From assembly GCA_018817715.1 (NCBI GenBank), contig JAHITT010000001.1, positions 173,781 to 226,486 on the forward strand: DNA of 52,706 nucleotides, given 5' to 3'. The DNA comes from Patescibacteria group bacterium. Its GTDB lineage: Bacteria; Patescibacteriota; Patescibacteriia; Veblenbacterales; UBA10138. Below, one piece after another: positions 3,441 to 50,151 of this stretch (position 1 is the stretch's first letter; every line of letters starts with the position of its first letter). A program made the translations under genes and the position numbers. The notes under the pieces were generated by a model. The model searched no databases, had not been told where the DNA came from, and was given only the letters and a program-made list of their open reading frames with translations.

Positions 3441-4205
3441 ATGGACAACTTAGAAAAATCCGCACCCAATAATCCGGGAATGTACGATTGGCTTCTAGCC
3501 CAACAGAAAGACAGTTTAATAGATCCTAAACAAACTGAAAAATTATTAAAAGAAAACGAGGAAAAACAAGATCGTTTAAAAAAATATAGATTGCCCACCT
3601 ATGCTACTACCGGAACCCATTCTTCATTAGAAGAAGCTATCTCCTACATACCAGAAAATAAATGGGGTGTTGAAAAATTCTTAGTACGTTGTGTACCCAA
3701 AAATAATGGGGGTTTAAAAATTCAGAGATGCAGAAATATAAGCTTAGAAGAAGTAATAAATTTTGTTAACAATCTACCAGAAGGTAAAAATAATTATTTC
3801 GTAGAAATAAGAGAGCATTGGGAGCCAAATTATTCTGGAACTATAATATCAGATGGTGATGGCTCTACGGTTATTGAACAAGTTAAAGGAAGTCATGCTA
3901 ATTTAGAAAATCAATCAATAGCTACCCCAACTATTAATCCAGAAACTGGTATCAAAAAATTGGAGATAAATAACAATAGATTCGACTTACATTTTGTAAG
4001 CCAAGGCGAACCCAACTTGGAAGAAAAAAATATAATGCTTGAAGCATTAAGATATTTTACCCCCGAAATAAATAGAAAAAAATTGGAAAAACTCAAGGTT
4101 TATACCGAATATTGTTTCTCTAATAAATATGGCTATAGATTTATTGACATAGCCGACAACGACTATTGGACAAATCTGAAAAAGAAAAAGTATAGTATAG
4201 ATTAA
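3441..4205 (+). CDS. hypothetical protein with a possible ATP-grasp-like segment
   Basis: 254 residues, not firmly recognised. A charged N-terminal helix (about 18-50) precedes a strand-rich middle: KFLVRCVPKNNGG near 80, then YFVEIREHWEPNYSGTII, SDGDGSTVIEQVKGSH up to about residue 152. The order 'ire.w.p.ysGtiis..dg..viE.v.G.h' recalls the ATP-binding half of PEP-synthase-like and other ATP-grasp proteins. The catalytic acidic pair later in that fold is not obvious, so I do not assign a reaction. The C-terminal 60 residues are helical and basic. It has its own promoter with a very short leader and no Shine-Dalgarno, and is monocistronic. AT-rich codon use matches the neighbouring accessory genes. 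Confidence 0.55.
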   Translation: MDNLEKSAPNNPGMYDWLLAQQKDSLIDPKQTEKLLKENEEKQDRLKKYRLPTYATTGTHSSLEEAISYIPENKWGVEKFLVRCVPKNNGGLKIQRCRNISLEEVINFVNNLPEGKNNYFVEIREHWEPNYSGTIISDGDGSTVIEQVKGSHANLENQSIATPTINPETGIKKLEINNNRFDLHFVSQGEPNLEEKNIMLEALRYFTPEINRKKLEKLKVYTEYCFSNKYGYRFIDIADNDYWTNLKKKKYSID

Positions 4206-6508: not shown

Positions 6509-9500
6509 TTACTGGATTTCAACAATATTTTTAGGAATTACTACAGTAGGTGCTTGATTATTAACTTGGAAAGTCTGATTAAGCGTCGTAGAATTTCCAG
6601 CATTATCAACAACATCTATTGAAAAACTATGACTACTACCATTATTATCACCATAAGCATAGCTCCCCCAACATTTAGTAGCGTCACAACTACAACTACC
6701 TAATTTATTACCAAGAGTTGGATTTTTTAAAAGACAAGTCGCGTTTGAAACGCCAGACAAACTATCACTAAGATACACTTCAAAAGCCGGAGCATTAGAA
6801 GAAGTCGAAGTGGCAACTTGCAAATTACCAGAAGAACCAGCTTTTACAGTGCTCTTTATGGGCGCGACTTTATCTATATTAGTAATATTCACCGTGGCTG
6901 TAGCTGTATTGCCTGCCCTATCCCGACCGCACAAATACAAAGAACCGTTAGCAGAATAAGTTAAAGCCCAAATAACCCGACTACCACCAGAATAATATAA
7001 ACTACCGCCCGAAGTACAGGTAGCATTAAGACTATTACTCCCGATAGAATACCGAGCGTCTTTAATATCAGACGAAGCATTTAAAGCCACATCAACATTG
7101 CCATCAGTCCAGCCACTAGGTGTAGGAGTGCCAGAAACACTAGGCGAACTTGTTTTATAAAATACTGCGCCCGAAGTGGTAGAACTACAACCAACTGTAT
7201 TACAAGCCCCTACAGCATCTACATAACTACCTTCCCCATAACTTGCCGAAATGCTATTAGAGGCGCCGGCAGTACTGGAGTATTTATAAACACCATTAAA
7301 ATAAATATAGTGATTATAATAAGTAGCACCTACAGAACCATTACACTGGAAAGTCATTGGTGAAACATTGGTATAACCAGCATCAGCGTCGGAGTTAGCA
7401 TTAGTAACTGTAACGCTACTACAAGTTGTAGGTGCGGCACCTACAGTTATACTATCCGAGGCACAAGAAGAATTACCAGCCCCGTCCATATATTCCACGC
7501 TGGCATATTGGGTACCCGTGCCGGGCAAAGTTATGGAAACCGCACTGGGACCATCCAAAGCGCCATAATTAGAAGCTACGGCTGTACCCAAACAAGAACT
7601 ATTGGTAAAAACTTTATACTGCTGACACCCCACTATACCATTAGGCGGAGCGGCCGCGGCTCTGGCTTCGGAAATTAAACCCAACCAAGATAATAATTGC
7701 CCAGCCAAGGCGTAAGTTTTACCAAAAGGTAAATAAGCTACCCCACCACCAGAATAACTATTATCCGAACAAGTCATATTCAAAGTGACATTTTGACTAG
7801 AAGTCGTAGCCGCCCCATTGTTTATAGCTGCTGTAACAACCGGCGGTGTAGTATCTAAAAAAATACTGTCACTAGCACAAGCAGTTAAACCAACATTATC
7901 TTTTACCTCAGTACTAACATATTTAGGGCCATCACCACTGCTTAAAGTAACAGTAGCGCTACCATTGGAACCAGTACCAGTAGACACTGGAGTACCACTA
8001 CAACCAGCTGTGTTGGCAAAAATTTTATAACTGGCACAACCGCTACCTGAATCTGAACAGCTAATTGCTACGCTGTTAGAGGTTGTTGGTGTAGTATCCC
8101 AGCCGCCACTTATGTTTACATAACCGGTAGGAGCCGTGGTATCACAATTTGGTTTATAAACTGAATTGCTAGTGGCGCTAGAAGTATAACTATGAGCCGG
8201 TACGCTAGAGACAACAGTATAAGTATAATTGCCAGCGGCCGGACAGCTAGCATCGTTTAAAGAAAAAGAAGATTCATAAGTACTGCCCCTAGAAACCGCC
8301 CCAACATAAGAACCATTACGGTAAACAGCAAAATTCAAAGGATAAGAACCAGAACCGGTAAACCAACTAATCTGAATAGTTGAGCCATAAGCCGTAGCGG
8401 TTACGCTGTTAGCCGGCGCCGGAGCTAAATAATAATGTTTACACTCTGTACTACTCCACACGCCACCTATGTCCTTAGCTTTAGTACAAGTAACTGTGTC
8501 GGCTCCGGTGGAAGTAAAAGACCAAGGATTAGCTACGGTAGTACTAGGCGTACAAATACTGCCGTACTGCGAAGCACAACCTAAAACTTGAGAAACTGCT
8601 ATGTTGTCAGCATAACTTATGCTGACCGTCATACTATTACCAATAGTAGAAGGGTTAGGCGACCAAGAACTTATATAAGGTGGCGATTGATCACAACTGG
8701 CTGTAGAACCAGATACAGTGGCCGCACTAGTTTCTACATAAATATCCTGTGGCACGGCTCGAGCAACATTAAGAATACCTAACCACCCTAAAGCTTTAAG
8801 CCAGATACTATCTTTATAAACCACGTTAATGTAATGCTTATAAGCAGAAACATTGAAAGTATAAAAAGTACCACAAGTTAAACCAGAATAAGTATAACTA
8901 GTACTACCAGCACTTAAAGAAATTTTAGCGCCACCTTCACGCCACACATAATAACCATCTTCGTTAGTAGCATTATCGTTCCAAGTTAAACCAACTGAAG
9001 TGGTAGCTATATTATTCATTATCAAATTAGAGGGCGCAGCATTGGGCGGTGAGTTATCCGGACAAACACTGGTACTAGGGCTAACTGAATTAGAAGAAGC
9101 TACCTGACCAGTAGTAGTGTTATAAGCCTGTACATAATAGGAATAACTGGTGCCACATAAAAGACCGCTAACCGTATAAGAAGTAGTATTAGCACCTAGG
9201 GTAGCAATCGGCGTATTGTAAGGCGGATTATACACTTTGTAACCCTGCTCGTTGGTATTGGGATCGTTCCAAGCCAAATTAATGCTAGTTTGTCCGCCAG
9301 CCGAGCCAGACAAGGAAGGGCCAGTCATAGTGGGGCAAGTAGCTGGCGTGGCATAAACAGTATTGGAATAACCAGTAGTACCGTAAACATCTTCGGCTAA
9401 TACCCTAAAAGAATGCTGGCCACAAGGTAAACCCGTAACATCTTTATATGACCAAATAGTAGAATAGTAAGAACCATTTTTATACAAATACATGTAATCG

Positions 9501-9933: not shown

Positions 9934-10443
9934 ATGAATGAATTCACACCTAATGCGCCGGCCCCTAAGCGCAACACCACTTTAATAATGGTGGTGGTAG
10001 TGGTGGTAGCCATTATCCTTTTGGCTTTGGGTTATTATTTAACCAGTAATCAAACTGGCACCGAAAACACACCAGCTAACAGTGAACAAACTGGTGAGCA
10101 AGCCGGTGACAGCCTACCTATGCCAGAAGAAGTCTTTTCTTATGTCGGTGAAGTTACAACTGTTGGCGAAAACGAATTAACTGTTTTGGCTAAACCAGTA
10201 GTTAATTATTTAACTGCTGATACCAGTTTAACAGTAACTACTAACGAAGAAACTCAAATTGTTAAACGGACTATTCCTAAAGTTTTACCCGAGGATGGCA
10301 ATGTAGCCAACTTGTTCAAACAGGAAACCGTAACTTTGGACGATGTTAAAACAGGCGACCAAGTAACTGTAGTTTCGGCTACTAATATTAAAGGCCAAAC
10401 CACCTTTACTGCCTCCAGGGTGGAAGTGTTGAACATACAATAA
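9934..10443 (+). CDS. membrane-anchored DUF5666-like protein
   Basis: 169 residues: a short cytoplasmic N-terminus, one membrane helix (TTLIMVVVVVVAIILLALGYYL, about 15-36), a Thr/Glu/Gln-rich linker (38-65) and an extracytoplasmic beta-rich domain. FSYVGEVTTVGENELTVLAKP near 68 and VTLDDVKTGDQVTVVSATNIKG near 132 are the two halves of the OB-like fold seen in DUF5666 and related CPR envelope proteins. Role unknown. It stands alone between its own promoter (9828) and a terminator (10468). The membrane topology is well supported; the DUF assignment is by resemblance. Confidence 0.65.
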   Translation: MNEFTPNAPAPKRNTTLIMVVVVVVAIILLALGYYLTSNQTGTENTPANSEQTGEQAGDSLPMPEEVFSYVGEVTTVGENELTVLAKPVVNYLTADTSLTVTTNEETQIVKRTIPKVLPEDGNVANLFKQETVTLDDVKTGDQVTVVSATNIKGQTTFTASRVEVLNIQ

Positions 10444-30513: not shown

Positions 30514-30552
30514 AACGGCTCACTTCATCAGATGAAGTGAGCCGTTTGTTTT
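30514..30552 (+). terminator. strong intrinsic terminator after efp
   Basis: AACGGCTCACTTC (30514-30526) / GAAGTGAGCCGTT (30534-30546): a 13-bp perfect stem with a 7-nt loop that can zip further, then TTGTTTT. Confidence 0.92.
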
Positions 30553-42847: not shown

Positions 42848-43097
42848 AGAGCTTAAAAATCAATAATTTCCTATTTAATTTATTTTTGGCTCTACTTAGC
42901 CAAAAAAATCAACCAAATAATACCTTAATTGGCTTTGTTAAATAAATCAAAAAACTGCTTGCACAACTAATCCACAGGAATAAAATAAGAATTAATGTCA
43001 AATTACCAATTAATAAATATCAAATCAATAAATTTGATATTTATTAATTGGTCATTGGTTAGTTATTTGCTATTTGGATTTTGGAATTATTTAGAAA
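42848..43097. repeat. spacer with a perfect 20-bp AT-rich hairpin
   Basis: No gene. 43006-43025 and 43032-43051 are perfect inverted arms (CCAATTAATAAATATCAAAT and its complement) around a 6-nt loop. 43083-43115 resembles the clpC-flanking repeat (ATTATTTAGAAATCAGGATTTAGG). The hairpin follows the end of the minus-strand Mur ligase gene but lacks a clear T-run. Confidence 0.65.
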
Positions 43098-44542: not shown

Positions 44543-44590
44543 TATCTTGCGGGGAAAAGTGTCCACGTGGACATAAATCCCCGCAAGATA
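44543..44590. repeat. left palindrome of the PaaX/Cas2-like cassette
   Basis: 13-bp outer arms TATCTTGCGGGGA (44543-44555) / TCCCCGCAAGATA (44578-44590), a small internal loop, and a perfect inner palindrome TGTCCACGTGGACA (44560-44573). 27 nt of its left part are identical to the right palindrome at 45232. Located 43 nt before the cassette gene. Confidence 0.9.
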
Positions 44591-44621
44591 TTGAACTCTT
44601 TTATATATTAAAAAAATTTAT

Positions 44622-44627
44622 TATACT
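44622..44627 (+). promoter_or_regulatory. -10-like box giving a possibly leaderless transcript
   Basis: TATACT ends 6 nt before the ATG at 44634. No Shine-Dalgarno and no good -35 are seen, so if used it would start transcription at or near the first codon. Confidence 0.35.
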
Positions 44628-44633
44628 ATATTC

Positions 44634-45197
44634 ATGACCAAGGAGGGGTCTAAATTAAATTTAACTACAGTATTATTAAACCTGATAGCTTTGGCTGGCC
44701 AGGCCGGTTTTAATTATATTAATTTTTTTTATGACATTAAACGTTACGGATATTTACGCACCCTTCCTTCAGGTGCTGACTATGTGGCTGAAATTAAACA
44801 ATTCCAAAAAGAAAGACAGTTAAAGGAAACTTTAAGACAACTCCAAAGATCCAAATATATTAAAAGCCAAAAAATCGGTAAAAATTTGATTTATAAAATA
44901 TCGGACAAAGGACTTTTTAAATTACTGACTTGCCAATTAAATCAAGCCCCCAAAATGGCAAAGAATTACACTATTGTTATATTCGACATACCAAAAACAC
45001 AAAATCCCGCTCGTCGACACCTCCGCTGGCTACTCAGGAGGGGTGGTTTTAAAATGCTACAACAAAGTGTTTGGCTAAGCCAAAAAGACAATTATAACCT
45101 GCTTAAAAAATTTATTAAAGAAAATAACCTAGATTCCTGGGTTAATATATTATACGCTGACAAAATACTAAACCTACCTAAAAGTATTTATAAATAA
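44634..45197 (+). CDS. PaaX-like winged-helix protein with a Cas2-like C-terminal domain
   Basis: 187 residues in two parts. Residues about 10-100 form a helical DNA-binding region ending in a winged-helix-like stretch (KETLRQLQRSKYIKSQKIGKNLIYKISDKGLFKLL). Residues about 111-180 have the Cas2/PaaX-C ferredoxin-like pattern: NYTIVIFDIP with Asp118 at the Cas2 catalytic position, RRHLRWLLRRGGFKMLQQSVWLS, and a final strand SWVNILYADKI. PaaX proteins repress catabolic genes; Cas2 is the scaffold/nuclease of CRISPR adaptation. No cas1, CRISPR array or catabolic operon is present. The gene is alone between two related large palindromes (44543-44590 and 45232-45271), which may be its binding sites or the ends of a mobile unit. 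Confidence 0.75.
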   Translation: MTKEGSKLNLTTVLLNLIALAGQAGFNYINFFYDIKRYGYLRTLPSGADYVAEIKQFQKERQLKETLRQLQRSKYIKSQKIGKNLIYKISDKGLFKLLTCQLNQAPKMAKNYTIVIFDIPKTQNPARRHLRWLLRRGGFKMLQQSVWLSQKDNYNLLKKFIKENNLDSWVNILYADKILNLPKSIYK

Positions 45198-45231
45198 AGC
45201 GAGTAAAAAATACAATCTATGTTTTATTACT

Positions 45232-45271
45232 TTGCGGGGAAAAGTGTCCACGTGGACACTTTTCCCCGCAA
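45232..45271. repeat. right palindrome of the PaaX/Cas2-like cassette (perfect, 40 bp)
   Basis: 40-bp perfect palindrome centred at 45251/45252: outer TTGCGGGGAAAA / TTTTCCCCGCAA, core GTGTCCACGTGGACAC. It begins 34 nt after the stop of the cassette gene and lies 29 nt before the convergent surface-protein stop. Confidence 0.93.
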
Positions 45272-45300: not shown

Positions 45301-48300
45301 CTAAAACCTAACAGCGCTGGCTTCCTGCATAACTTGCTTTACCTGCTCGGCGGTTAAACCATAATTATATACCCTAAAATCATCAATTTTACCTTGCAAA
45401 TAATACCAAGCCAAACCTATTCTCCATTGATAGCCGCTTATTAAATGATCGCTCCACCAATCCCCAGAATTTGTACCAGTTACAGTAACTTCCTTACCAT
45501 TTATGTATAATTTAACCCCTACGCCATCCTGCACCCAAGCAATATGAAGCCATTGATTAGTAAACGTCCCTAAATTATCTAAATCATAATTTAGATTAAC
45601 CTTAGCCACATCATCGTCTTCTATAACCAAATCAATAACATTTCCAGAACTTATATAACTCCTAATATAATCCGCAGTACTATTTTCATAAAAATGAAAA
45701 AGCCCATGATTTCTATCCGAAGCGGCTAAATTCAACCAATAACTAAATGTACCTGTTTTTGATTTAAGGGTTAAAGCGTTTGAAGCTATTATTTGATCAT
45801 CTGTCCCATCAAAATTTAAACTTTTACCAAATTTACCACTTGCTCCATTAGACCAAGCTTGAGCCACAGTAGTTTGTGTGCCGGTTGCCCCAATAGTAAT
45901 TGTTCCATTATTACCATTACCGCTGAAATCGCGGGCTGTTGTGCCATCACCTTCGTCCAAAGCCCAGTGCCCCACTGGCTTACCGCGATTATAATCATAA
46001 GATACTTGCGCTTGATTGCGAGCGTAGTTATAAATTTTTACATCATCAACTAAACCATCAAAAGGGAAACTCCCTGCCCGACTACCAATATAACGAACAG
46101 CGGCTGTAGCATCACCAGGGTAAGTACTGCTAGCCACTAAATTACCGTTTAAATATAAATTCTGATAATTACCAGTTTCACTGAATACTCCTTCAACGTG
46201 CTGCCAATTAGTATTATTAGCGCTACCAGTAGAAACAACTGCATTGTTAACATAAAACTGTAGAGTATTATTGTTATAACAAACTTCAAACTGAGAACCA
46301 TTATCAGTAAAAATCATCTGATAGGTTGGCGTAGAAGTACGTCGCTTAAACCAAACAGAAATTGTTCCTTCGGTTAAGGTACCTAAAGTATTACCTACAT
46401 TTATATAATCATTACTACCGTCAAAACTTACAGCCGAGCCGTATTTACCCGGCTTCCAAGTTGGGCCATTAATTAAAGTTCCTGTACCACCACTACCACT
46501 ACTATCTACGGCGCTGGTACCGGTATTATCGTCCATTTTCCACCAAGCCACTGGTGCATTGCCTGTACTCCCTGATTCTACCCCGCTACCTAAAGCTATA
46601 GCAGAACCTTGATTATAATCTCGAACAACATCGGCATCGGTTAGAGCATATGTATACATTTTTACATCATCAATCAAACCGGAAAAAAAGTTAGTTGTGT
46701 TACGGGCGCCAATATTTGAATTTGTTAAAATACCATTACCTAAAGCACCTGATGGTGAATTATTAGTATTGTCTAATTTACCATCTAAATAAACCCTTAG
46801 TTGGTTTCCGTAGTCCAGAACACAAGCTGTGTGATGCCAATTTGTATCAGTAATGGTTGTATTAGAATCAACAGATGGTGAAACTGTTCCATTCCAATAT
46901 TCACATCTAATTTTATTATCAGCTTTAATATAAATAGTACTTTCGTCTCCGTCACTATCCACCACATATTCCACCACACCAGTCCTTGTTCTTTTAAACC
47001 AAGTAGAAATTGTTAGTTGGCTAGGCACAGTATTGCCAAGCGGTTGAGATATATTAACTTTAGTTGTTGTTCCATTAAAACTTATAGCCTTGCTAATTTT
47101 TCCACTGGTAGTCCAAGTACCACCAGTTATTGTGCCATTGGGTCCGCCTACAACATTATTATAAGCAGTTGTGCCTTGGCCCTCATCAAACCGCCACCAA
47201 TTAACTGGCCCACCAATACCTGTTCCCATATCTTCTTGAATTTGTTTTGGCGTGCGAACGTAGTTGTAAATTTTTACTTCATCTATTTTACCCTGAAAAT
47301 CTTCACTGCTACGGCTAATTGCTAAACCAGCAGCAGCTGTAAAACTTCCAGATTTACTTCCCGAAGCTACCTGTATTCCATCCACATATAATCTGGAAGT
47401 TGCTCCGTCATAAGTACCAGTAACATAATGCCAGGCATCATTAATATTAGTAGCATAAGCTAGCATAGTTACGGGGCTGTTACACTGGCTACCAAAATTT
47501 AATTGGTTATTACTAAAACCAAATAAAATATCAGCACAACCACCAGCTACAATATCATCCCAGTTACTACTGGCGGTATGGTATACCCAAGCACTAACTG
47601 TTAAAGCGCTACCATATTTACCTGTCATGGCTGGCAAGGCAACATATTTGTTAGTACCAGTAAAATCCAAAGCGCTACCGTGTTTACCCGGCTTCCAAGT
47701 TGGTGAACCACTAAAAGAAGTGCTATTAAAACCATTGCCACTGGAATCGTAAGCGGTGCTACCAGTATTCTCATCAAACTTCCAATACCCCACCGGCCCC
47801 GGCGCCCAAGAATATAAATCCGCTACTTCTTGGCCGGACAAAGCACGGTTGTAAACACGAACATCGTCCATTGAACCATTATTAAAAAACGAAGATGCAC
47901 CAGTATGCGAACCTATATAACATTTACCTGTGGCAACATTCATTGTTATATTCTGTTGATTTTTTAGCTCACCGTTAACATAAACATAACTAATTCCATC
48001 TTTGTGAACTAAAACAACATGATACCAATTGCCAGTAGAAATAGTGTTAGTAAAAGTAACCAATGGACTTGAATAAGCAGAATGAAATAAATTGCCACCA
48101 CTGGTAATACCAAAACCACTTTGTTGGCCTGTGACATTATCACCAACACTAAAAATATAATTATAACTATTGGTAAAAGAGGTTCCTTTAACCCAAGCTG
48201 AAAAAGTATGAGAATTAGAACCAAAAATAAAGTTAGAGCTTGTGCCGCATGATATATAATCATCAGTACCATCCAATAAAGCACCCTTACCATATTTAGC

Positions 48301-50151
48301 TGTGCTAGTAGTCATACCACCATTAGCTGTACCATTGTTGCCATTACCACTAGAATCAACAACTTCACCAGCTGTACCATTCCAACTTGCCTCGTCCATT
48401 TTCCAGTAACCAACCAAACCGTCGGCTAACCATTTTTGTGACTTACCACCCAGCACGGCCGAGGCACCCGCGCTGGCGCCGCTGCCGGCTAAACCGGCTG
48501 TATAATCCTGTTTTATTTGTGTTTCATTGCGACCGTAATTGTAAAATTTTACCTCGTCTATAAAACCGTTTAAAGCTCGACCATAACCAGCGCTTTCCAT
48601 GCCAATATTAAGTGCATTACCGTTGGTAGTAATAGTACCGGTAGCGGCGTAAGTTTTATCTAAAACACCGTTTAAGTACCACTTGATATTGCTACCGTCC
48701 CAAGTGATGGCCACGTGTGTCCACTGATTCAAAGGAATAGCGGTATTGGAATCCCTATGATTAGCATCTACCCCGTAAAAAAACGAAGCTAGTTTACCTG
48801 TACCAGCCGTAACCGACATATAATAAGCTGAGGCTTTTATGGTAATAGCGCCCCGATCGGTATTAGCGCCGCCCATGGTGTAACTGTTTAATTTTACCCA
48901 GGCTGACATAGTTATACCGTTGGTAAAATCTATTTGATTGGCATCGGGCACGGAAACATAATCATTGGTGCCATCAAAACTAAAACAGCGTCCGCTAATA
49001 CATTGATCTTGATTCAACCAGGTAGCACCGTTTATTGAAGCATTGTTCAAATAAGTAGTACTGTCGGCTGTAGAAGTGCCATAACCTTCGTCAAATCGCC
49101 AGTAGCCTACCGGCCCCTCCCCTTTTTCCTCGCTGCCTAAAGTGCCGATTGTCGGCTCGGTAGCGGTATATTTTCTTAAACGAACATTATCATATTGAAC
49201 AACAGTCTGATACTGTCCTAAAGCAATACTTAAATCGGATAAAGGACTTAAACTGCCAGAGGATGTACCTGAACCTATAGAAGCATCATTGATAAAAAAA
49301 GTATTATTACTTCCATTAACTTGGGTTTTTAAATTATACCAAGTATCAGCCGACATATTATTAGCACCTATATTTGTATTGCCAGTCCAAGATCCACTAT
49401 ATTCTTGAAAATTAGTAGTCGCGGTGCCACTAGTCCAAAATCGCGATAAATATCCATTGGAAATACGATATCTTTGATAAACTTGCAAACGACCGCTACC
49501 ACCCGAAGAAAATTTTCCTCTAAACTCCATAATATAACCACTGGCATCGGAAAGGTTTGAAAGATTGGCATATAACGGTGTGGCATCACAAGTAGGACTC
49601 GCCCCAATCTGCATAACTCCAGACGAAATAGTAGCCGCACAACCAGAATGATTAGTCCACTTGCTTGAATCCACTACTGAACCAGAAAAATCATCAAAAA
49701 AAGTAAACACCTCACTGCCTTTTTGAGCATTAGTGGCTTGCGGGTTACCATAATAGGTAAAAATATTAGTAGTACCATTGGGTAACGAAGCAACTTTTGT
49801 CCAAACTTTGGTAGCGGCATTATTACAACCGGGATTATTTTCTTCTAGCCAATATGGCAATACCTGCCCTTGATAATCCGTAATTCTTAAATCATCGCAA
49901 TCGGCCTGCATTTTGCCAGCGCTTATTAAAGAAGCTGTATCCAAAGTAAAAGCCACTTGATAATCGGTTAAAGTACTACCCCCGTTAGTTATGGGGATTA
50001 ATTTACGATAATGCCAACCTTCGTTCCACCAGGCCGAAGCCTCCCCCACGTCGCGGCTAAAAAAGAAATAACCTAAAAATCCGCTAATTATTACAAAAAT
50101 AATTAAAGTGATTATAACAGGTTTCTTTTTAGGGAGATGTTGGAGGAACAT
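45301..50151 (-). CDS. giant membrane-anchored DUF2341/LamG repeat surface protein
   Basis: 1616 residues. One N-terminal membrane helix (PVIITLIIFVIISGFLGYFFF, about 11-31) leads to a DUF2341 domain (WWNEGWHYRKLIPITNGG ... IFTYYGNPQATNAQ, about 41-140) and a concanavalin-like module (about 150-335). Six LamG/jelly-roll repeats follow, each opening with a G-(P/L)-V-x-(Y/W/H)-W motif and an acidic tip, near 346, 578, 788, 982, 1199 and 1391. Most contain a SFDG(T/S)(N)DY-like strand and close with a DDV(K)-YNY motif. LamG domains bind sugars and surface ligands, so host attachment is a fair guess. No C-terminal anchor is visible. It is downstream of another surface protein on the same strand, after a repeat-rich gap. 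Confidence 0.88.
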   Translation of the reverse strand: MFLQHLPKKKPVIITLIIFVIISGFLGYFFFSRDVGEASAWWNEGWHYRKLIPITNGGSTLTDYQVAFTLDTASLISAGKMQADCDDLRITDYQGQVLPYWLEENNPGCNNAATKVWTKVASLPNGTTNIFTYYGNPQATNAQKGSEVFTFFDDFSGSVVDSSKWTNHSGCAATISSGVMQIGASPTCDATPLYANLSNLSDASGYIMEFRGKFSSGGSGRLQVYQRYRISNGYLSRFWTSGTATTNFQEYSGSWTGNTNIGANNMSADTWYNLKTQVNGSNNTFFINDASIGSGTSSGSLSPLSDLSIALGQYQTVVQYDNVRLRKYTATEPTIGTLGSEEKGEGPVGYWRFDEGYGTSTADSTTYLNNASINGATWLNQDQCISGRCFSFDGTNDYVSVPDANQIDFTNGITMSAWVKLNSYTMGGANTDRGAITIKASAYYMSVTAGTGKLASFFYGVDANHRDSNTAIPLNQWTHVAITWDGSNIKWYLNGVLDKTYAATGTITTNGNALNIGMESAGYGRALNGFIDEVKFYNYGRNETQIKQDYTAGLAGSGASAGASAVLGGKSQKWLADGLVGYWKMDEASWNGTAGEVVDSSGNGNNGTANGGMTTSTAKYGKGALLDGTDDYISCGTSSNFIFGSNSHTFSAWVKGTSFTNSYNYIFSVGDNVTGQQSGFGITSGGNLFHSAYSSPLVTFTNTISTGNWYHVVLVHKDGISYVYVNGELKNQQNITMNVATGKCYIGSHTGASSFFNNGSMDDVRVYNRALSGQEVADLYSWAPGPVGYWKFDENTGSTAYDSSGNGFNSTSFSGSPTWKPGKHGSALDFTGTNKYVALPAMTGKYGSALTVSAWVYHTASSNWDDIVAGGCADILFGFSNNQLNFGSQCNSPVTMLAYATNINDAWHYVTGTYDGATSRLYVDGIQVASGSKSGSFTAAAGLAISRSSEDFQGKIDEVKIYNYVRTPKQIQEDMGTGIGGPVNWWRFDEGQGTTAYNNVVGGPNGTITGGTWTTSGKISKAISFNGTTTKVNISQPLGNTVPSQLTISTWFKRTRTGVVEYVVDSDGDESTIYIKADNKIRCEYWNGTVSPSVDSNTTITDTNWHHTACVLDYGNQLRVYLDGKLDNTNNSPSGALGNGILTNSNIGARNTTNFFSGLIDDVKMYTYALTDADVVRDYNQGSAIALGSGVESGSTGNAPVAWWKMDDNTGTSAVDSSGSGGTGTLINGPTWKPGKYGSAVSFDGSNDYINVGNTLGTLTEGTISVWFKRRTSTPTYQMIFTDNGSQFEVCYNNNTLQFYVNNAVVSTGSANNTNWQHVEGVFSETGNYQNLYLNGNLVASSTYPGDATAAVRYIGSRAGSFPFDGLVDDVKIYNYARNQAQVSYDYNRGKPVGHWALDEGDGTTARDFSGNGNNGTITIGATGTQTTVAQAWSNGASGKFGKSLNFDGTDDQIIASNALTLKSKTGTFSYWLNLAASDRNHGLFHFYENSTADYIRSYISSGNVIDLVIEDDDVAKVNLNYDLDNLGTFTNQWLHIAWVQDGVGVKLYINGKEVTVTGTNSGDWWSDHLISGYQWRIGLAWYYLQGKIDDFRVYNYGLTAEQVKQVMQEASAVRF

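Follow-up and report, generated by a model that had tools for sequence, protein, structure and literature searches.

The locus raises the question of what a single gene for a PaaX/Cas2-like protein does between two long palindromes, and whether these palindromes belong to it. The window, i.e. the whole stretch of DNA analysed, comprises 52,706 nucleotides of a Patescibacteria genome. The gene (44634-45197, plus strand) encodes 187 aa and was assigned by Pfam, NCBIfam, PADLOC, an AlphaFold2 model and structure matches. On the left it is preceded by a palindrome at 44543-44590 (extended stem; core 44545-44584), about 43-49 bp before the start codon. On the right a perfect palindrome of 20+20 bp at 45232-45271 begins 34 bp after the stop codon. 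Both contain the string TTGCGGGGAAAAGTGTCCACGTGGACA. An earlier note on this DNA, made from the letters alone, had described a protein with a winged-helix and a Cas2-like half, Asp118 in the motif VIFDIP, and flanking palindromes with 27 identical nucleotides. The domain searches and the structural model confirmed the protein, and the two palindromes were found again.

The Pfam domain PaaX_M was detected at residues 110-177 (2.1e-11). The NCBIfam model for Cas2, TIGR01573, was matched with 28.5 bits, above the cut-off of 24.5, and PADLOC also called the protein Cas2. With the PaaX equivalog TIGR02277 a score of 27.1 bits was obtained, far below the cut-off of 264.55. In the AlphaFold2 model (mean pLDDT 87) the N-terminal half is helical and winged-helix-like (residues 10-104; 44661-44945, plus strand), and PDB profiles of winged-helix proteins were matched as well. 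The C-terminal Cas2-like domain (residues 112-175; 44967-45158, plus strand) is modelled as beta-alpha-beta-beta-alpha-beta. The best match among solved structures was E. coli PaaX (8a39, E = 1.4e-5), followed by Cas2 from Cas1-Cas2 complexes. No significant match was obtained in a library of viral structures.

Seven residues, D118, R127, F139, Q143, S145, V146 and W147, are invariant across 57 aligned homologues. Asp118 (codon at 44985-44987, plus strand) is the Cas2 aspartate, which is missing in the aligned sequences of E. coli PaaX and Rv0674. From this alignment, the Patescibacteria family appears to have retained an active-site residue of Cas2, whereas the classical PaaX repressor would have lost it. 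The translation holds a single histidine. Hence, an HUH motif is impossible in this protein, and no HUH transposase family was found among the Pfam and NCBIfam matches of the protein family. The gene lies between a Mur ligase gene and a gene for a laminin-G-repeat protein; among these immediate neighbours neither cas1, a CRISPR array nor genes of phenylacetate degradation (paa) were present. The reading frame directly after the right palindrome (45301-50151) encodes 1616 aa with six laminin-G-like domains and DUF2341.

The left palindrome is an imperfect hybrid of two stem types. Its outer half is of the AAAAGT type, TTGCGGGGAAAAGTGTCCAC, and its inner half of the ATTTAT type, GTGGACATAAATCCCCGCAA; each type occurs as a full palindrome elsewhere in the same genome. 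The 15-mer GTGTCCACGTGGACA was matched four times in the window with up to two mismatches, versus 0.03 expected, and folding of the two palindromes as single-stranded DNA gave z = -6.9 and -9.5. Thus, a chance origin is excluded. The whole genome (872 kb) holds seven palindrome sites, versus none for the reversed control pattern. Five of them are further copies without the gene, of the AAAAGT or the ATTTAT type, and all five have the outer stem GCGGGG in common. Two other long palindromes of the window, at 30514-30546 (16-bp arms) and 43001-43056 (25-bp, A+T-rich arms), are outside this type.

The left palindrome lies just upstream of the promoter region of the gene. A candidate promoter, TTTATA-16-TATACT, was recognized by its consensus match just past the palindrome (44600-44627, plus strand). 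A -10-like hexamer was found in 35 of 52 elements of the family, at a median distance of 31 bp from the centre of the left palindrome, which would place the -35 within the arm of this palindrome. Autoregulation of the Cas2-like gene through the left palindrome over its promoter is therefore likely, as judged from the arrangement of these motifs.

Homologues were found in 25 of 95 sampled genomes, with up to 10 diverged copies in one genome; within the order to which the window belongs, each of the 8 genomes contains them. In a large genome set the named relatives were all Patescibacteria wherever the record names phylum or lineage, including Kerfeldbacteria, Veblenbacteria, Uhrbacteria, Daviesbacteria and Saccharibacteria. 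A search of phages and plasmids revealed no homologue. The flanks were scored by the best repeat shared between the 300 bp before and the 300 bp after each gene. The threshold was exceeded for 56 of 76 homologues and missed for the other 20; of 81 control genes from the neighbourhood, 2 exceeded it (Fisher p = 7e-23). In an independent set of new homologues from other Patescibacteria it was exceeded for 26 of 50. Flanking of homologues by palindromes, proposed in the earlier note as a check, is thus borne out, and the control genes speak against its counter-case of palindromes equally common near unrelated genes.

Palindromic symmetry is absent from a few shared repeats; most are element-specific palindromes with the centre GTCC-NNNN-GGAC, CGATCG, CGGCCG or similar. 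Their length is 36-44 bp across the family, about 40 bp for the copies in the window. For the 52 elements with palindromic repeats, the centres are separated by a median of 682 bp and lie about 66 bp before the start codon and 46 bp after the stop codon. Single genomes contain several diverged pairs of gene and palindrome, each paralogue with a palindrome of its own. The similarity of palindromes and proteins is weakly correlated (Mantel r = 0.25-0.28 for the inner 6 bp, p = 0.001), and this correlation could come from co-inheritance. The Cas2-like gene between its own palindromes is a phylum-wide family.

The stems were compared at 74 sites of the GTCC type. Pairing of the arms was 0.77-1.0 out to 17 bp and fell to about 0.26 by 22 bp; in the comparison of elements it was kept to about 19 bp. 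All four Watson-Crick pairs are represented at positions 13-17, for position 15 with 29 GC, 23 CG, 12 TA and 3 AT pairs, and no enrichment of G.T pairs was observed at these sites. The stem sequence varies while complementarity is kept, which indicates a DNA dyad or a hairpin of single-stranded DNA. Comparison of the two copies within single elements gave 27 compensated and 177 uncompensated changes, chiefly owing to the frequent imperfection of the left copy. Hence, the evidence for pairing rests on the comparison between different elements. A model with an integrase acting at the centre, with complementary external and free internal halves, is not favoured by a comparison of the four half-sites, in which external and internal halves agree equally (0.81 and 0.80).

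Palindromes alone, as non-autonomous units, had also been anticipated, and such solo copies do exist, dispersed and for the most part at the ends of genes. In the 8 genomes of the order the pattern TGTCCNNNNGGACA was found at 64 sites versus 3 for the reversed control. The 33 solo sites matched elements of their own genome with 10.0 of 12 versus 8.3 of 12 after permutation of the genomes (p <= 5e-4). An own-genome element was the best match for 18 of them, so a resident counterpart does not exist for every solo copy. Where both neighbouring genes were readable, these genes are convergent at about 13 sites, in tandem at about 14 and divergent at 1. This placement resembles that of REPs, unlike that of operators. 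A few solo positions recur between genera, owing to either common descent or a hotspot. In viral contigs, no match was obtained when 25 bases from the palindrome were searched for exactly.

Some repeats were noticed beside the solo copies. In G006, palindromes of two families stand about 140 bp apart as a repeated composite (L193:900-1110 and L195:850-1060); at two unrelated sites, this composite resembles a non-autonomous element. In G005, three solo palindromes (L200:6130-6215, L201:1030-1130, L202:940-1040) are followed by a conserved tail of about 55 bp with repeated AATCTAC units. The abundant CCTCCCC...GGGGAGG repeats of Uhrbacteria, first read as solo copies, are a separate family. A REP-like family besides that of the Cas2-like elements, CCTCCCCTTAAGGTAAGGGGAGG, is very abundant in the Uhrbacteria G035, G072 and G095, frequently in doublets (L236:1650-1702, 3565-3625 and 9970-10080; L234:6405-6490), and no link to Cas2-like genes was seen.

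Movement was examined by comparison of related genomes, all of them unnamed or metagenome assemblies. In the Uhrbacteria genome G072 the palindrome flanking the Cas2-like gene L075 is present in ten exact copies, sharing a 26-bp core, and two variants. None of these was found in G035 and G095, which represent sister genera. An alpha/beta-hydrolase gene of G072 contains one copy in frame as an insertion of 51 bp (17 residues), i.e. 15 bp beyond the 36-bp palindrome, and the orthologues in both sister genera are without it. A second in-frame case is likely at L244; most copies are intergenic. The genes pheS and rseP are separated by 16 bp in G035 versus about 4 kb in G072. There, an array with four identical 36-bp palindromes (L236:4357-8745), absent from G035 and G095, carries unrelated genes, for a thioredoxin-like, a membrane, a lipoprotein-like and a Cas2-like protein, with palindromes between them. 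Two of these cassettes share a promoter segment after the palindrome, TTGACA...TGCTATTAT. The in-frame insertion and the gene array, both absent from the sister genera, indicate mobility of the palindromes and occasionally of the gene. This insertion evidence comes from Uhrbacteria, a different lineage from that of the window. Furthermore, the L072 element of G035 is missing from the syntenic locus of G072, the closest G072 relative of this element lies elsewhere, and the mutual homology of three G065 elements ends near the element edges. No target-site duplication was seen at 12 copies.

The gene itself behaves differently. No pair of paralogues within one genome exceeds about 73% identity; thus, its copying was not recent. 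Some elements hold their position between genera; that of the window and the corresponding one of G005, for example, both precede the same Mur ligase gene. Three genomes, G000 (the genome of the window), G005 and G002, have elements of two different subfamilies in divergent orientation before this gene, which reflects either a hotspot or a retained function. As the Cas2-like gene is frequently passed on at a fixed position, mobility seems to be greater for the palindrome than for the gene. Overall, the gene is for the most part inherited and its palindrome spreads, which is the pattern of REPtrons (PMC8266576). The suggestion of the earlier note, a minimal mobile or self-regulated element, is supported in part. 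Empty sites, also named there, were located in a related family, both for a palindrome by itself and for an array that carries genes. For the window element no nucleotide-exact empty site was found among the 8 genomes of the order, which share about 50-55% protein identity. At the rpmF-gyrA locus, G007 and G004 were too diverged from G003 and G006 for junctions to be defined. In the rpmF-gyrA intergenic region of G007, a 49-bp repeat of the 3' end of gyrA (L111:5895-5943 and 6660-6708) stands on the far side of the element; it is a possible insertion scar and not clearly a target duplication.

From the element-specific bracketing, the dispersed solo copies and the insertions absent from sister genera, we conclude with a probability of about 0.66 that the locus is a REPtron-like unit, in which a PaaX/Cas2-like protein is joined with its own family of 36-44-bp palindromes spreading in the genome. 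The protein itself may cut or copy the palindrome. In such a mechanism the winged helix would recognize a half-site of the palindrome, and dimerization on this site of two-fold symmetry, or on the hairpin, would be due to the Cas2-fold domain. Together with a metal, the conserved Asp might then nick or resolve the site, after which the palindrome, or the DNA between two palindromes, would be copied or moved. The overlap of the left palindrome with the gene promoter would probably allow autoregulation too.

The main rival is the autoregulatory repressor: an ordinary PaaX-like protein with the palindromes as operators, which represses its own promoter and whose regulon is marked by the solo copies. 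The closest structure match, E. coli PaaX, is in line with it, as are the position of the left palindrome next to or over the -35, the perfect two-fold symmetric sites, which fit a dimeric winged helix, and the few solo positions recurring across genera. A repressor explains the left palindrome, but not the second copy directly after the gene, the copy within the hydrolase reading frame, the ten exact 26-bp cores in G072 with none in the sister genomes, and the retention of the Cas2 Asp that E. coli PaaX is missing. The solo sites, convergent or tandem with one divergent, and the own palindrome of every paralogue also argue against it, and we consider this explanation unlikely. The hydrolase copy within an open reading frame also speaks against bidirectional terminators or mRNA-stabilizing hairpins. 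Such a function would suit the strength of the hairpins and their frequent position after stop codons; it is highly improbable, as the palindromes were not reported by a terminator scan, are not followed by a T-run and show no G.T enrichment in their stems.

The palindromes could also be REP-like sequences spread by an unrelated enzyme (such as an IS200/IS605-type transposase) or by replication slippage, with the Cas2-like gene as cargo. Other genes of G072 also lie between identical palindromes, HUH transposase genes may be present elsewhere in the genomes, and another REP family, of the CCTCCCCTTAAGG type, is abundant in Uhrbacteria. Against this, the same protein family recurs between element-specific palindromes in many families of Patescibacteria, and neighbouring genes are rarely found between such palindromes. 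The similarity of palindromes tracks that of the proteins, though co-inheritance could give the same result. A mere cargo role is thus improbable, and the REPtron-like unit is preferred.

Cas2 is regarded either as the structural partner of Cas1 or as a nuclease, for RNA or DNA, whose role is unclear. The genomes of Patescibacteria are streamlined and poor in known insertion sequences. In the open-access literature, which includes few preprints, no description of a PaaX/Cas2-palindrome system in Patescibacteria was found, and its novelty is provisional. Tentatively, and with less confidence than in the REPtron-like unit, we put forward a wider reading: a so far undescribed class of mobile palindromes that is widespread in Patescibacteria. 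A nuclease of the Cas2 fold, fused to a winged helix and independent of Cas1, would recognize, cut and copy the perfect palindrome belonging to it and at times take along whole genes from between two palindromes. This would be a DNA-mobilizing role of the Cas2 fold outside CRISPR. If true, the Cas2 fold would have a role in DNA mobility without Cas1, which bears on the origin of Cas2. Patescibacteria would possess their own means to mobilize gene cassettes and short DNA, the REP/RAYT problem would have been solved a second time in an unrelated way, and many genes annotated as 'Cas2' or 'PaaX' in Patescibacteria would need new names.

Among known systems, PaaX is an aryl-CoA-responsive repressor of phenylacetate degradation. 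The window protein shares with it the winged helix, the PaaX_M Cas2-like domain and the top PDB fold match (8a39). It differs in length (187 aa versus about 316), in the Cas2 Asp kept and in a TIGR02277 cut-off far from reached, and its gene is bounded by palindromes without adjoining paa genes. With Cas2 and VapD-like nucleases of the Cas2 fold it has the fold, the signature D..., R..., GF..LQ.SVW and the invariant Asp in common. In contrast to CRISPR Cas2, the gene has no adjoining Cas1 or CRISPR, is fused to a winged helix and is tied to dispersed palindromes. The protein is neither a classical PaaX nor a CRISPR Cas2.

Insertion sequences of the DDE type have terminal inverted repeats and a short target-site duplication, whereas the element ends are palindromic direct repeats and no target duplication was seen at the 12 copies. 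Integron cassettes are inserted by a tyrosine integrase at attI. In G072, several genes with identical palindromes between them resemble such cassettes, and a similar promoter segment is present in two of them, but no integrase was seen at this locus, most elements carry the Cas2-like gene alone and the sites are perfect palindromes. Rickettsia palindromic elements are palindromic repeats in frame in protein-coding genes, with a size of about 150 bp (PMC10969869). The in-frame palindrome of the G072 hydrolase gene may be comparable, but the palindromes of Patescibacteria are mostly intergenic, measure about 36-44 bp and have an associated protein gene.

A REPtron consists of a TnpA-REP (RAYT) gene flanked by cognate REP palindromes, which are 20-50 nt long, dispersed and mostly intergenic (PMC8266576). 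The RAYT gene is largely vertically inherited, protein and palindrome co-vary, and the REP/RAYT mechanism is still open (PMC8266576). The Cas2-like single gene is likewise flanked by cognate palindromes, with dispersed, mostly intergenic solo copies. Its protein is winged-helix/Cas2-like, whereas RAYT is of the HUH/Y1 type. Hallmarks of RAYTs are the HUH motif and the catalytic Tyr of Y1 transposases, and a GTAG tetranucleotide before the palindrome. No shared GTAG was found in the flanks of the G000 and G072 palindrome copies; further differences are the several diverged gene-palindrome pairs per genome and the many palindromes without an intervening loop sequence. Having neither HUH motif nor GTAG, the Cas2-like unit is not a member of the RAYT family, yet it works like a REP/RAYT system.
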